DNA of 64,000 nucleotides from an uncultured Paracoccaceae bacterium (GTDB lineage Bacteria > Pseudomonadota > Alphaproteobacteria > Rhodobacterales > Rhodobacteraceae): NCBI GenBank assembly GCA_947499715.1, contig CANMPL010000002.1, positions 124,001 through 188,000 on the forward strand, in the 5' to 3' direction. The notes under the pieces were generated by a model, which was not told where the DNA came from, searched no databases, and was given only the letters and a program-made list of their open reading frames with translations. The translations under genes were made by a program, and so were the position numbers. How positions within the stretch are numbered: position 1 is the stretch's first letter; every line of letters begins with the position of its first letter. Positions 20,846 to 37,640 of the stretch are shown in pieces.

Positions 20846-20922
20846 GGTCCCTTAGCTCAGCTGGATAGAGCAGCCGACTTCTAATCGGCAGGCCGAGGGT
20901 TCGAATCCTTCAGGGACCGCCA
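20846..20922 (+). tRNA. tRNA-Arg (anticodon TCT)
   Basis: This is a complete cloverleaf with acceptor stem GGTCCCT/AGGGACC, D arm GCTC..GAGC, anticodon stem GCCGA/TCGGC with loop CTTCTAA (anticodon TCT, 20880-20882), T arm with GGTTCGAATCC, discriminator G and an encoded CCA. It reads AGA (and AGG) codons. Confidence 0.96.
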
Positions 20923-22829: not shown

Positions 22830-23810
22830 TCAGACGGACCACAGATACCGCGTAACGTGGTAAAAGATGGGTGCCGCAAAAACCACGCTATCCAGCTGAT
22901 CGACGAAACCGCCCTGACCCGGAATGAGGTGTGACCAATCCTTGACGCCGCGGTCACGTTTGATCGCTGCAAAGACCAGATTGCCGAACATGCCCACCAG
23001 GGAGGCCATTGCCGCCATCAGCGCCGCGCCGATGACGCCAAAGGGTGTGAGCCACGCCAGAAAGCCGCCGATAACGGCCGCCGATGCAACACCGCAGGCC
23101 AGCCCTTCCCACGTCTTGGGCGACAGGTCCGGTGCGATGCGGGTCTTGCCAATGCGGCGGCCAAAGAAGAAATCCAGCAGATCCCCTAATTGCACCACAA
23201 CGATCAGGAAGGCGATCAGCAGCACGCCGCGTTCGCCATAGCCGGGAATATCCAGCGACATCAGCGCAGGCACGTGGCTGACGCAGAAGACGGTGATCAT
23301 CAACCCCCACTGCGTTTCGGCCACGCGGGTCATAAAGCGGGTGTAATTGCCACGCAGGGCGCTGACGATGGGCAGCAGCAGGAAGGCATAGACGGGAATA
23401 AAGACCGTAAAGATCCCATGCCACCCCATCCATACAAAGATATATTGCAGGGGCAAAACCGCAAAGAAAGCCAGCGCCAGTGACATGTGATCCGCACGGT
23501 TCTTGGCCGTCAGCGTCAGAAATTCGCGCATCGCCGCAAAGCTGGCGAACAGGAAAAGGATCACGACACCCAGCCGCCCCGTGATCAGCGCCAAAGAGAT
23601 CAGCGCCACCATCGCCCACCAGCTTTCAACGCGGGTCATATAGGTATCAAGCACGGGGTTCTGGGTGCCCGGCATCTGACGGGCACGGATCAACTCTCCA
23701 AAAAGCGTCAGAACAACCAGAACACCAAAACCGGCCAATGCCAGCAAGACAATGCTGCCAGTTGTGCCTGCCATCGCGGCCTCGAGGATGGGGTTGCTTG
23801 CGGGGTTCAT
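22830..23810 (-). CDS. Phosphatidate cytidylyltransferase-like membrane enzyme (CdsA family)
   Basis: This 326-residue polytopic membrane protein has the CDP-alcohol-forming signature near its C-terminus: KRDRGVKDWSHLIPGQGG followed by VDQLDS. CdsA makes CDP-diacylglycerol from phosphatidate and CTP. It lacks the usual neighbours of the canonical cdsA (uppS, dxr, rseP). Instead it overlaps by four bases an acyltransferase, so it may be a second, specialised paralogue acting on the acyltransferase product. Confidence 0.85.
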   Translation of the reverse strand: MNPASNPILEAAMAGTTGSIVLLALAGFGVLVVLTLFGELIRARQMPGTQNPVLDTYMTRVESWWAMVALISLALITGRLGVVILFLFASFAAMREFLTLTAKNRADHMSLALAFFAVLPLQYIFVWMGWHGIFTVFIPVYAFLLLPIVSALRGNYTRFMTRVAETQWGLMITVFCVSHVPALMSLDIPGYGERGVLLIAFLIVVVQLGDLLDFFFGRRIGKTRIAPDLSPKTWEGLACGVASAAVIGGFLAWLTPFGVIGAALMAAMASLVGMFGNLVFAAIKRDRGVKDWSHLIPGQGGFVDQLDSVVFAAPIFYHVTRYLWSV

Positions 23811-24478
23811 GGCGCGGCCTCTTCGGGTTCAGCCGGGCGCAAGTCAGCCAACGCGGCAGAGGCGCGGGCCAAAAAGTCGTCCTTGCTTTCGTCCGGTCCA
23901 ATGTGAAGCGGTGCGCCAAAGGTCACGGTGCAGATCAGGGGCAAGGGAATGACTTCCCCCTTTGGCATGATGGAATTGAGATTGGCGACCCAAGTTGGCA
24001 CCAAATCCACTTCGGGAAAGGCTTTGCCCATGTTGTAGATCCCCGCCTTGAACGGCAGCAGCGGGTCGGGCCCCATGTTGCGGCCCCCTTCGGGAAAGAT
24101 GATCAGGCTGTCGCCGGTCGCCATCGCCTCTAGGATTTTGGCCATCGGGTCGTCGTTCACCTCGCGGCGTCGGTCGATCAGCACGGCCCGAAACACTTCA
24201 CCCCCCGCAAAGGCGCGCAGCTTGTTCTTCAGCCAGTAATCGGCGGCGGCCACGGGGCGGGTCTGGCGGCGAATGGCCGGCGGCAGAACCGACCAGATCA
24301 TCGGCATATCCCCGTTAGATGTGTGGTTGGCAAAGAAGATCCGCTGTTTCGGCACAGGTTCGATCCCCTGCCAATCGGCGCGCACAGCGGTCAAGAACCG
24401 CACAAAAAGGCGGATGATATTGCCGACGATGTCGGCGGCAAAGCGGCGCAAGGCGGTCAGAATGCTATTCATATTCAA
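23807..24478 (-). CDS. 1-acyl-glycerol-3-phosphate acyltransferase-like (PlsC family)
   Basis: This 223-residue acyltransferase has the HX4D-type motif in NHTSNGD (about residues 51-57), FPEGGR (in place of FPEGTR, about 129-134) and a basic region LIDRRREVNDDP. Enzymes of this family acylate lysophosphatidate or related lipids on the inner membrane. Its stop overlaps the start of the CdsA-like gene (ATGA), giving consecutive steps in phospholipid synthesis. Confidence 0.82.
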   Translation of the reverse strand: MNMNSILTALRRFAADIVGNIIRLFVRFLTAVRADWQGIEPVPKQRIFFANHTSNGDMPMIWSVLPPAIRRQTRPVAAADYWLKNKLRAFAGGEVFRAVLIDRRREVNDDPMAKILEAMATGDSLIIFPEGGRNMGPDPLLPFKAGIYNMGKAFPEVDLVPTWVANLNSIMPKGEVIPLPLICTVTFGAPLHIGPDESKDDFLARASAALADLRPAEPEEAAP

Positions 24479-25048: not shown

Positions 25049-25333
25049 TTATTTGATGTCGGCGTCGACATATTCCGACAGAAGCTTTTCGTTGCGCGCG
25101 TCTTCCAGCCGCTGGATGCGGTCGTCGGACAGGCGTTCGTCGAAGCGGTATTTGACGAAGTTCACCAAGGCCAGCGTCAGCAACAGGATGCCGATGCCCC
25201 AGTAGCCCTTTGTCGCCAGCGGCACGTCGGGGGACATGTAGAGCGAAAGCGCGAGCATCCCATAGGCCACCACGACGGCGAAGCCATTGAAGAACATGAT
25301 AAGGGCGTTGTCTGATTTGAATGTATTTTGCAT
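25049..25333 (-). CDS. YiaA/YiaB-type inner-membrane protein
   Basis: This 94-residue protein has two predicted transmembrane helices (about residues 11-31 and 41-60) followed by a charged cytoplasmic helix (FDERLSDDRIQRLEDARNEK). This is the YiaAB two-helix layout. It is 24 bases downstream of pspA and precedes a terminator, so it is the second gene of a TetR-controlled envelope-stress operon and may help bring PspA to the membrane (inference). Confidence 0.75.
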   Translation of the reverse strand: MQNTFKSDNALIMFFNGFAVVVAYGMLALSLYMSPDVPLATKGYWGIGILLLTLALVNFVKYRFDERLSDDRIQRLEDARNEKLLSEYVDADIK

Positions 25334-25357
25334 TGGACTGTCTCCTACTTGAGTCGA

Positions 25358-26032
25358 TTATTTCTTGGTTTTCAGGCGGTTGAGCACGTCTTGTGCGGTC
25401 GCCCGTGTTGGATCGCCGTAGCCTGCGTCGGCCATGCGGTCGATGATGCCACCCTGATTAAGGTCGCGATTGATCTCGGCCACGATCTGGCTTTGTTCAA
25501 ACGGGTCATCCTTGCCGATAACGCGGGCGATCAACTCTTCGGCCTCTTCACTGGCAGAGGTCTGGCTGATCGAGCCAAGCTTCATCTGGATATCCTGTTC
25601 GCGGCGGACGGCACGGGCCTGGATGGCGCCTTGCTTGAGGTCGATGATCCGGCGGTGACCGTTTTCGATCGAGTTGCGCAGGCGCATGACCTTTTGTTCC
25701 AGCCGCGCGCAGGTTTCATTGCGCAGCGCCAGTTCGTTTTCCATCTGCGCAATGGCCTCGGCCGCTTGCAGGGCCATATCTTCGTTTTTGGCCTCAAGAG
25801 CTTCGGTTGCGCGGGCGGTCAGATCGCTGATCCGCTTTTGCAGGTTACTGCGTTGGGCATTCTCAGAGCGTTGGCGCTGGATCAGGCTGGCAAGCGTTGC
25901 TTTGGCGGCCTTCAGTGAGCCTTCGGCCTCGCGGATTTTCTGGTCGATCAACTCAATCGCAAAAGCATCACGCACGCGGTCCTCGGCGCGGGCATTGGCC
26001 CCGACGATCAGTGTGGAAAGTGTCTTGAACAT
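25358..26032 (-). CDS. PspA/IM30-family membrane-stress protein
   Basis: This 224-residue protein is almost entirely predicted coiled coil (about residues 25-185). It has the PspA/IM30 opening MFKTLSTLIVGANARAEDRV with an amphipathic N-terminal helix. Family members form ESCRT-III-like assemblies that support damaged inner membranes. A GGAG lies just upstream of ATG 26032. No PspF, PspB or PspC is nearby; instead the promoter holds three copies of a palindrome also found before the adjacent TetR gene. Confidence 0.83.
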   Translation of the reverse strand: MFKTLSTLIVGANARAEDRVRDAFAIELIDQKIREAEGSLKAAKATLASLIQRQRSENAQRSNLQKRISDLTARATEALEAKNEDMALQAAEAIAQMENELALRNETCARLEQKVMRLRNSIENGHRRIIDLKQGAIQARAVRREQDIQMKLGSISQTSASEEAEELIARVIGKDDPFEQSQIVAEINRDLNQGGIIDRMADAGYGDPTRATAQDVLNRLKTKK

Positions 26033-26047
26033 CTGTCTAACTCCTCG

Positions 26048-26117
26048 TGAACGCTGTTCATGAATTGGATATAGAAGTTGAATGAACGATGTTCAAGAAA
26101 AAAATGAACGACGTTCA
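26048..26117 (-). promoter_or_regulatory. pspA promoter with three TetR operators
   Basis: Three 13-base palindromes of form TGAAC-N3-GTTCA occur: TGAACGCTGTTCA (26048-26060), TGAACGATGTTCA (26083-26095) and TGAACGACGTTCA (26105-26117, overlapping the tetR stop). On the minus strand a sigma-70-like promoter TTGAAC (26096-26091), 17-base spacer, TATATC (26073-26068) sits exactly among them. Operator 2 covers the -35 box and operator 1 covers the likely start site, a classic repression layout. Confidence 0.78.
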
Positions 26118-26720
26118 GGAAACAGTGTGTTCAGAGGTGATATTCGTCAGCACGACAGCGATCATGTCTTCGATGCGTTCCATCGGAACACCCGAGATAC
26201 GGCGCTCGAGGCCCAGCGACACAATTCCATGCACCGATGAGAACAACGCGCGGGTCATCAGGTCAATCTGGTCGGCGTCCCATTCGGGAAAGATTTCGCG
26301 CAAGGGGGCGGCGATCAGGGAAAAGACCTGACCAAGTTCAGCCAGATACCAATCGGGGACTTTCATGTCGGTGGACATTTGCAGATCAAAAAGGGCTCGC
26401 CAAAGGTTCGTATTCTCGGCCGCAAAGCCTAGGTAGCCGTGGCCCATGACGATCAGCTGGTTTTGTGGTGCAATGGTCTGGCCTGCCAAAATGCCAGAGA
26501 CATGCGCGCCAAGGCGGCGAAAAGTGCGGCCGTTGACGGCCATGATCAATTCGTTGAGGTCATGAAAGACATTGTAGATCGCCCCGACAGAGCACCCCGC
26601 CATCCCGGCCAGATCCCGCGCCTTGATGGCAGAGGTGCCGTGGGTGGTGATGATCTGCTCTGCGGCGTCGATCAGTTTCTCGCGCAGTTCTGTGCGACGG
26701 GCTTCGGTTTTGGCTGCCAT
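26115..26720 (-). CDS. TetR-family repressor of the psp operon
   Basis: This 201-residue regulator has an N-terminal TetR helix-turn-helix (AAEQIITTHGTSAIKARDLA...SVGAIYNVFHDLNEL, about residues 18-58) and a C-terminal ligand domain of the WHG type. It is directly upstream of pspA on the same strand. A copy of the palindrome TGAAC-N3-GTTCA lies just before its own start and three copies lie before pspA, so it very likely represses itself and pspA-yiaA. The inducing ligand is unknown. Confidence 0.88.
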   Translation of the reverse strand: MAAKTEARRTELREKLIDAAEQIITTHGTSAIKARDLAGMAGCSVGAIYNVFHDLNELIMAVNGRTFRRLGAHVSGILAGQTIAPQNQLIVMGHGYLGFAAENTNLWRALFDLQMSTDMKVPDWYLAELGQVFSLIAAPLREIFPEWDADQIDLMTRALFSSVHGIVSLGLERRISGVPMERIEDMIAVVLTNITSEHTVS

Positions 26721-26735
26721 GGTGTCTATCCGGTG

Positions 26736-26748
26736 TGAACGCGGTTCA
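26736..26748. promoter_or_regulatory. TetR autoregulatory operator
   Basis: TGAACGCGGTTCA, the fourth copy of the TGAAC-N3-GTTCA palindrome, lies 16 bases before the tetR start. It is next to a weak -10-like TATAGC on the minus strand, so it would cover the transcription start. Confidence 0.75.
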
Positions 26749-26824: not shown

Positions 26825-28051
26825 TCAGCCGTCACGTTTGACCGGTGCGCCGCCTGCAAAGGTGTTGACGGCGTGATAGCTGATTGGGTCTTCCTGCATT
26901 TGAAGGTGCAAACCGTCGCCGGTAAAGGGGTGCGCGCGCGCGAGGTCTTCGTCCACGTCGATGCCAAGGCCGGGGGCGGTGGGGACCGGAATATAGCCAT
27001 CTTCGACCGTCAGGGTGTTTTTGATCAGCGCGGCGTGGAACGGTGTTTCAATCGTTTCGGCCATGAGGATGTTGGGAATGGAGGCGGCCAGTTGCACATT
27101 GGCGGCCCATTCCACGGGGCCTGCGTAAAGGTGCGGCGCCATTTGCGCGTTGTGCACTTCGGCGATGGCTGCGATTTTCTTGGTTTCCCAGATGCCACCG
27201 GAACGGCCCAAGGCGGGCTGCAGGATACTGGCCCCTTGGCGCAAGGCAGTGGCAAACTCGGCCTTGGTGGTCAGGCGTTCGCCAGTCGCGACCGGAATGC
27301 GGACCTGCGCAGCGACGGTCGAGAGATCAGTGTCAGGGGGGCAGGGTTCTTCGAACCACAGCGGCGAGAAAGGCTCTATCGCTTGCCCCATACGCACAGC
27401 ACCCCCTGTCGAGAATTGTCCGTGGGTGCCAAACAGCAGGTCTGCACGGTCGCCGACGGCGTCGCGGATCTTGCGGCAGAAATCGACGGAGGTTGAGATG
27501 TCGAACATCGATGGCATGTGCCCGGCGCGGATCGTGTAGGGGCCGGCGGGGTCGAATTTGACGGCGGAATAACCCGCCTCGACGCAGGCCAAGGCACTTT
27601 CGGCGGCCATATCAGCCGAGGCCCAGAATGCGGGCAGGGGATGATGATCTTGCGGATAAAGGTAGGTGTAGGCGCGGATGTGGTCGTTGAGGCGCCCACC
27701 GATCAAGGCATTTACAGGCCGGTCGCGATCCTTGCCAAGAATATCCCAGCAGGCGATTTCCAACCCCGACCAAGCGCCCATCACGGTCAGATCGGGCCGC
27801 TGGGTGAAGCCCGCAGAATAGACGCGGCGGAACATCAGTTCGATATCTTCGGGGTTCTCGTCGGCCATGTGGCGGGCAAAAACATCCTGGATCACATGGG
27901 TCATGGCGTCGGGGCCGATGGAAGAGGCATAACATTCGCCCCAGCCGACAACGCCGGTATCCGTGGTCAGTTTGACAAGGATCCAATAGCGCCCGCCCCA
28001 GCCCGGTGCGGGTGGCGAAGTGACGATGATATCAAGGTCGGTGAGTTTCAT
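26825..28051 (-). CDS. Mandelate racemase/muconate lactonizing (enolase) superfamily protein
   Basis: This 408-residue enolase-superfamily enzyme is probably an acid-sugar dehydratase. Landmarks are AVKFDPAGPY (general-base Lys region, about residue 155), WFEEPCPPD and ATGERL (metal Glu ligands) and MAPHLYAGPVEWAAN (catalytic His). The first metal-ligand position reads FGTHGQF instead of the common Asp. From memory GTHGQ is typical of one subfamily, but ligand geometry is uncertain. No sugar transporter is adjacent, so the substrate cannot be named. It is divergent from a GNAT gene, with 28 bases between starts. Confidence 0.82.
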   Translation of the reverse strand: MKLTDLDIIVTSPPAPGWGGRYWILVKLTTDTGVVGWGECYASSIGPDAMTHVIQDVFARHMADENPEDIELMFRRVYSAGFTQRPDLTVMGAWSGLEIACWDILGKDRDRPVNALIGGRLNDHIRAYTYLYPQDHHPLPAFWASADMAAESALACVEAGYSAVKFDPAGPYTIRAGHMPSMFDISTSVDFCRKIRDAVGDRADLLFGTHGQFSTGGAVRMGQAIEPFSPLWFEEPCPPDTDLSTVAAQVRIPVATGERLTTKAEFATALRQGASILQPALGRSGGIWETKKIAAIAEVHNAQMAPHLYAGPVEWAANVQLAASIPNILMAETIETPFHAALIKNTLTVEDGYIPVPTAPGLGIDVDEDLARAHPFTGDGLHLQMQEDPISYHAVNTFAGGAPVKRDG

Positions 28052-37556: not shown

Positions 37557-37640
37557 GATTCGGTGATGAGACTGAACCAATTTCATGTCACCATTATATA
37601 GCGAATGCCTAACAGATCGTAAACGCTGCTCGGCGTTGCA

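Follow-up and report, generated by a model that had tools for sequence, protein, structure and literature searches.

A TetR-PspA-YiaA module with a conserved operator array in Rhodobacteraceae and a predicted small envelope regulon

The window analyzed here is a stretch of 64,000 nt (contig CANMPL010000002.1, positions 124,001 to 188,000) from the genome of an uncultured Paracoccaceae bacterium (GCA_947499715.1). On its minus strand, open reading frames for a TetR-family regulator, a PspA protein, and a YiaA-like protein follow one another in that order, and exact TGAACNNNGTTCA sites, that is, the palindrome TGAAC-N3-GTTCA, are present at 26048, 26083, 26105, and 26736, as the initial annotation of this DNA had reported. 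The features of the locus are as follows.

25049-25333, minus strand: gene for a YiaA-like two-helix membrane protein (94 aa), 3' of pspA; its orthologs match YiaAB
25358-26032, minus strand: pspA, PspA/IM30 membrane-maintenance protein (224 aa; Pfam)
26048-26060: operator 1, exact palindrome, downstream of the pspA -10 and over the presumed start region
26068-26096, minus strand: predicted pspA promoter, TTGAAC (26096-26091), 17 bases, TATATC (26073-26068)
26083-26095: operator 2, exact palindrome, holding most of the pspA -35 box
26105-26117: operator 3, exact palindrome, upstream of the -35 and overlapping the tetR stop codon
26115-26720, minus strand: tetR, TetR-family regulator (201 aa) with a TetR_C_33 ligand domain (Pfam)
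26736-26748: operator 4, exact palindrome, separated by 15 bases from the tetR start codon downstream of it; presumed autoregulatory site

The PspA protein scores 57.5 bits against PspA_IM30 (Pfam cut-off, 33.9) and is the sole match to this family in the genome. The YiaA-like window protein taken alone matches YiaAB (PF05360) below the cut-off (E = 0.0064); a YiaAB match was found in 19 of 19 aligned orthologs of the 94-residue protein when E values up to 10 were allowed, the best being 5e-6. Downstream of the psp operon, on the minus strand, lie genes for a PlsC-type acyltransferase (23807-24478) and a phosphatidate cytidylyltransferase-like protein (22830-23810), both of which were matched within the fetched stretch in 16 of the 80 relatives described below. 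A gene of the mandelate racemase/enolase superfamily (26825-28051, minus strand) is located upstream of tetR and has matches near TetR in 18 of these 80 relatives. The only RNA family match between 20000 and 32000 is a tRNA gene (20846-20919, plus strand).

The regulator matches TetR_C_33 above the Pfam cut-off (E = 2.3e-9) and TetR_N 0.9 bits under the cut-off (E = 6.5e-5; 23.1 bits against 24). It is the sole ortholog of this TetR in the genome, the next match scoring 22.5 bits. The best structural matches of its structure model (mean pLDDT, 92.5) are solved TetR structures, and the nearest of these, 3CJD, a TetR regulator from Jannaschia sp. CCS1, is an ortholog (E = 2e-63, 55% identical, TM-score 0.84); the literature search found no paper pairing "3CJD" with "TetR" and no function for 3CJD. 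Together, the TetR_C_33 match, the modeled fold, and the site in the regulator's own promoter point to a member of the TetR family. The specific small-molecule or lipid signal that had been proposed for this protein is an expectation that the TetR fold alone would suggest. Among the 50 matches listed, no fold neighbor other than 3CJD exceeds 24% identity; these neighbors include KstR, RolR, FasR, and FadR, and at this distance they only hint at lipid or CoA ligands, prove nothing, and fix no ligand.

The four exact sites are the only ones in the whole 64 kb, in agreement with the initial impression that the window held no further copy. Across 100 dinucleotide shuffles, the mean number of exact TGAAC-N3-GTTCA sites was 0.01 and the largest was 1, with 0 of 100 shuffles reaching four. 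When one mismatch was allowed, a single extra site appeared, at 37573, and the resulting total of 5 (shuffle mean, 1.53) was likewise reached in 0 of 100 shuffles. The -35/-10 pair of the pspA promoter had been described as lying between operators 1 and 2. The pair and its spacing exist, and the -10 hexamer TATATC indeed sits between operators 2 and 1, but the -35 hexamer overlaps operator 2. The pspA promoter was not among the promoters listed by a strict sigma-70 consensus scan.

To place the locus in a comparative context, a TetR alignment scan of named genomes yielded 356 relatives, of which the closest 80 were kept. In 64 of these 80, pspA comes after tetR, and the YiaA-like gene stands beside pspA in all 64; in the other 16 loci no pspA match was found within the fetched stretch, yet each has a site before tetR. 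Cultured genera such as Ruegeria, Leisingera, Thalassovita, and Litoreibacter carry the locus. The 80 loci (783,223 bases) contain 268 exact sites: 188 between tetR and pspA and 78 immediately upstream of tetR (266 together), none inside tetR, and 2 elsewhere. The reversed pattern gave 0 sites in the same loci. Conservation of the operators in relatives, which the initial annotation had named as a test of its proposal, is borne out, with three exact operators in the tetR-pspA gap of 60 of the 64 pspA-bearing loci (two in the other 4) and a site before tetR in 78 of 80. In all 60 three-site loci, operators 3 and 2 are spaced 21 to 23 bases apart and operators 2 and 1 are spaced 34 to 36 bases apart, and operator 1 keeps its position at about -29 from the pspA start in relatives.

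The bases that flank the operators bear on the promoter. A T precedes operator 2 in 60 of 60 loci, completing TTGAAC, compared with 19 of 60 for operator 3 and 1 of 60 for operator 1, indicating that operator 2 doubles as the -35 box. At the 16- or 17-base spacer given by the spacing class, the -10 columns have T as the first base in 43 of 60 loci and A as the second in 45 of 60. A score-based search for the -10 in the relatives produced no clear peak (the mean at spacer 16, 2.43, is no better than at spacer 25). The promoter claim therefore rests on the column counts, and the -10 is weak, whereas the -35 is firm.

The co-occurrence of regulator, operators, and PspA was assessed in 295 sampled genomes of the family. 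A TetR ortholog was counted at ≥150 bits, where the list falls from 157.6 to 116.9 (14 of 79 genomes are below the threshold), and an operator pair was defined as exact sites 8 to 38 bases apart (the pair placements exclude G012, G043, and G234). PspA was found in 56 genomes, an operator pair in 56, and TetR in 65. TetR and PspA occur together in 54 genomes, TetR only in 11, PspA only in 2, and neither in 228; the table of TetR against operator pairs likewise reads both 54, TetR only 11, pair only 2, and neither 228. Operator pairs are thus present in 54 of 65 genomes with TetR versus 2 of 230 without it, and the reversed pair pattern occurs in 0 of 295. Fisher's p is ∼2e-45 for each table, a value that describes rather than tests the association because the genomes share ancestry and are not independent.

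Two genomes have PspA and no TetR at ≥150 bits. In G106, a TetR match of lower score (79.9 bits) lies 1.7 kb from PspA. In G112, the PspA match is partial, contains three internal stops (C333:10715-11071), and is apparently a decaying copy. Among the 11 TetR genomes that lack a close pair, six (G097, G140, G162, G180, G274, and G303) have PspA and retain two exact sites, located at, or close to, the outermost positions of the operator array, and the remaining five also lack PspA. One genome, G012, has an operator pair and neither PspA nor a TetR match above 150 bits.

PspA lies within 1.5 kb of TetR in 53 of the 56 genomes that encode it, in the same direction in 44 and divergently in 9. The nine divergent loci encode a distant PspA, 27 to 33% identical to the reference PspAs, and each of the nine contains three exact sites, at -86 to -88, -63 to -65, and -29 to -31 relative to where the pspA match begins (spacings, 22 to 23 and 33 to 35). 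The array holds its position before pspA whichever direction tetR faces. Of the arguments for a functioning promoter switch, this fixed placement in both gene orders is the strongest.

A genome-wide scan for the site, as the initial annotation had proposed, returned 11 exact sites in 4.0 Mb (2 for the reversed pattern), and nine relatives pooled gave 62 sites (12 reversed). Four of the 11 are those of the psp locus, and five more lie in three promoters of envelope genes; these five and two sites inside genes make up the seven outside the window.

Two sites (L005): before the gene for a small membrane protein upstream of murB
Two sites (L006): before an operon for a small lipoprotein and a DUF2145 protein, oriented divergently from groES
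One site (L009): before the gene for a DUF5671 membrane protein
One site (L007): inside asd
One site (L008): inside vgrG

The asd and vgrG sites were set aside as probable chance occurrences because they are located in coding sequence; their number equals the reversed count of 2. Exact sites are found again in the five remaining genomes of the genus, ahead of the small membrane protein in 5 of 5, the DUF2145 operon in 4 of 5, and the DUF5671 protein in 2 of 5. In G003, a genome of the same genus, TetR, its own site, and the sites of the small membrane protein are present, and PspA was not found. Along with the 11 of 65 TetR genomes that lack PspA, this genome indicates that PspA is not the regulator's only role. 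A local switch confined to psp was rejected, given the further promoter sites and the TetR-bearing relatives without PspA. The original proposal of a TetR switch on the psp operon thus draws support from conservation and co-occurrence but is too narrow: the same sites before several membrane and envelope genes would define a small envelope regulon, which the first description had missed. No efflux pump was found among the site-bearing genes read, some of which carry an annotation.

Several other genes adjoin exact sites. In two genomes of the genus (L055:2596-3216 and L057:2502-3116), an operator lies 48 bases upstream of a secreted-looking protein of ∼205 residues, whose L055 version has no Pfam match. 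A 394-residue membrane protein of G003 (L062:2512-3696) recurs beside sites in G096, G259, G177, G168, and G039, where the recurrences stand beside operator pairs (L218, L219, L215, L211, and L212); G096 and G259 are without PspA, and the ∼394-residue protein matches no Pfam family over the cut-off. Single cases are a VIT/VWA protein in G188 and a small lipoprotein in G071. In G106, a psp operon, a site, a lipoprotein-DUF2145 operon, and a TetR gene stand in succession. Finally, an operator in G003 overlaps the start of an ORF that by eye resembles a cytochrome P450 (L060:2541-3971), the true start of which may be further in.

To look beyond the family, a class-wide sample of 385 genomes was searched, 23 of which matched TetR with E ≤ 1e-28. 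Of the 24 class-wide loci, 20 were read (L234 to L253), all outside the family, the four Rhodobacteraceae loci being left out. The TetR proteins of these 20 loci are 28 to 46% identical to the references; an exact site is present in 15 loci and absent from 5. PspA and YiaA-like genes lie beside TetR in three of them (L234, L235, and L248). In G656 (L235:2092-2162), only the middle of three operators has the sequence TGAAC-N3-GTTCA; the two that flank it are TGAGC-N3-GCTCA, possibly reflecting a shift in the recognized sequence. The TetR homolog of G481 is accompanied by two sites before a gene for a CDP-alcohol phosphatidyltransferase (L242). In G021, the TetR homolog is 30% identical, and the divergently oriented gene for a fatty acid hydroxylase is preceded by two exact sites; elsewhere in G021, a PlsC-type acyltransferase has a site 45 bases upstream. 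DUF2157, which is part of LiaI/LiaF (PMC11237479), is the site-bearing neighbor of a distant TetR homolog at L245 (seen once).

The observations are best read as a one-component Psp system, to which we assign a probability of roughly 0.8: TetR would bind the palindromes, repress pspA-yiaA, its own gene, and an envelope regulon, and be released by a membrane-linked cue. The neighboring TetR very probably binds the operator row before pspA, as dimers on the TGAAC-N3-GTTCA palindromes. Positioned over the -35 box and the start region, it would repress pspA-yiaA, and at the fourth site it would repress its own gene. Repression is the natural reading because operator 2 carries the pspA -35 box, and, judging from anatomy and conservation, an autoregulated repressor would account for operators that cover both the -35 and the presumed start region, with a further one ahead of the regulator's own gene. 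The same repressor would hold the murB-side small membrane protein, the lipoprotein-DUF2145 operon beside groES, and the DUF5671 membrane protein. Membrane disturbance, or a membrane-derived or lipid-like molecule in the pocket, would cause TetR to release DNA, after which PspA and the YiaA-like protein would be produced and the inner membrane shielded or repaired.

What the sequences show directly is the sites, their position in the promoter, their conservation, and the joint occurrence of TetR, sites, and PspA. From these we infer three elements: TetR as the binder, repression as the direction of control, and a membrane-related signal. For the last of these, a membrane or lipid signal is favored, at slightly less than even odds, by the envelope nature of the genes that bear sites and by the lipid enzymes encoded close to distant homologs. 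More broadly, the alphaproteobacterial TetR clade that shares TGAAC-N3-GTTCA might consist of one-component membrane-state sensors that read a lipid-derived cytoplasmic signal. Their outputs would be PspA and the YiaA-like protein in Rhodobacteraceae and, elsewhere, lipid-modifying enzymes, DUF2157, VIT/VWA, and other envelope proteins, with a single repressor replacing PspF/PspBC. This generalization is a conjecture that we hold to be somewhat doubtful.

The alternative that survives best is that TetR is mainly a sensor of lipid metabolism, of the acyl-CoA or fatty-acid type, with membrane composition as its primary role and PspA as a secondary output that some members of the family acquired. 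It would account for the sites before the fatty acid hydroxylase and PlsC-type acyltransferase of G021 and before the CDP-alcohol phosphatidyltransferase of G481 (L242), and for the 11 of 65 TetR genomes without PspA. The fold neighbors after 3CJD also include KstR and FasR, structures of which have been solved with CoA thioesters. However, the site-bearing genes read in the window's own genus encode small membrane proteins, the lipoprotein-DUF2145 operon, and DUF5671, with no lipid enzymes, and fold neighbors as distant as these do not fix the ligand. A primary role in lipid metabolism is possible, with the odds against it.

Activation of pspA by TetR, in place of repression, is unlikely. Some TetR proteins activate, and operator 3, upstream of the -35, occupies a position open to an activator, but in 60 of 64 loci operator 2 overlaps the -35 and operator 1 the presumed start region, and operator 4 is 15 bases before the tetR start codon. 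It is quite unlikely, too, that another factor recognizing GAAC/GTTC half-sites, such as LexA, binds the sites and that TetR is a bystander. The half-sites of LexA boxes, GTTC/GAAC, resemble the operator halves, and G012 has an operator pair with no TetR above 150 bits. But LexA is widespread, whereas operator pairs occur in 2 of 230 genomes without TetR and in 54 of 65 with it; a site precedes tetR itself in 78 of 80 loci; and the half-sites here are 3 bases apart, unlike LexA boxes, which form a direct repeat with 7 between in Alphaproteobacteria and a palindrome with 4 between in Gram-positive bacteria. Chance palindromes, among which some genomic sites probably belong (the asd and vgrG pair equals the reversed-pattern count of 2), are refuted for the pspA and tetR sites by the shuffles, the reversed-pattern controls (62 versus 12 sites in nine relatives; 0 of 295 genomes with reversed pairs), and the conserved placement (three sites in 60 of 64 loci; 266 of 268 sites).

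The initial finding holds and extends further than its first description, to a TetR-PspA-YiaA module across Rhodobacteraceae and a small predicted envelope regulon, for which TetR binding, the direction of control, and the signal are predictions. The stimulus detected by Psp systems is a long-standing question, for which the explanations described so far invoke membrane partners and complex regulators. TetR is one soluble protein with a pocket, and its ligand would give the Psp signal in chemical terms. With the 3CJD crystal structure, defined operators, and cultured genera that carry the locus, this question can be put to a direct test. For DUF2145, DUF5671, and the small membrane proteins, the shared operators are a first clue to function.

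With PspA present, PspC not found, and PspF not over the cut-off, the system is Psp-like and not canonical. PspC (PF04024) matched in 0 of 12 genomes tested (7 of 14 control genomes match), and PspF (TIGR02974) exceeded the cut-off in 0 of these 12, all of which have weaker matches of the kind expected of other sigma-54 activators. Like the E. coli Psp system (PspF and sigma-54, pspABCDE), the locus has a PspA effector adjoining a regulator gene; unlike it, a TetR-type gene stands in place of PspF, the promoter is sigma-70-like, the partner is YiaA-like, and there is no PspC match. The TetR fold, the palindromic operators over promoter elements, and the site before the regulator's own gene recall the general features of the autoregulated AcrR, TtgR, and KstR, from which the locus differs in that the site-bearing genes encode PspA and envelope proteins.

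Among the matches listed in the literature search, no report of TetR control of pspA was found, and the words "TetR" and "YiaA" are absent from the main texts of two large Psp surveys (PMC11237479 and PMC9239133). The latter notes that pspA genes tend to adjoin genes with HTH domains (PMC9239133). In Zymomonas mobilis, pspA was among the genes that rose when a TetR gene was deleted, and the authors suggested an energy imbalance (PMC10998469), and in another report pspA and a TetR gene occupy separate rows of a table (PMC11406972). PspA systems under PspF, LiaRS, and ClgR have been described (PMC11237479). The Lia (LiaRS) and mycobacterial (ClgR) systems resemble the present one in placing a PspA homolog under a non-PspF regulator, but these are two-component and Cro-like regulators (PMC11237479), whereas the candidate here is a TetR repressor. 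The TetR switch would add a new mode of regulation to the Psp response, one simpler than the described switches.
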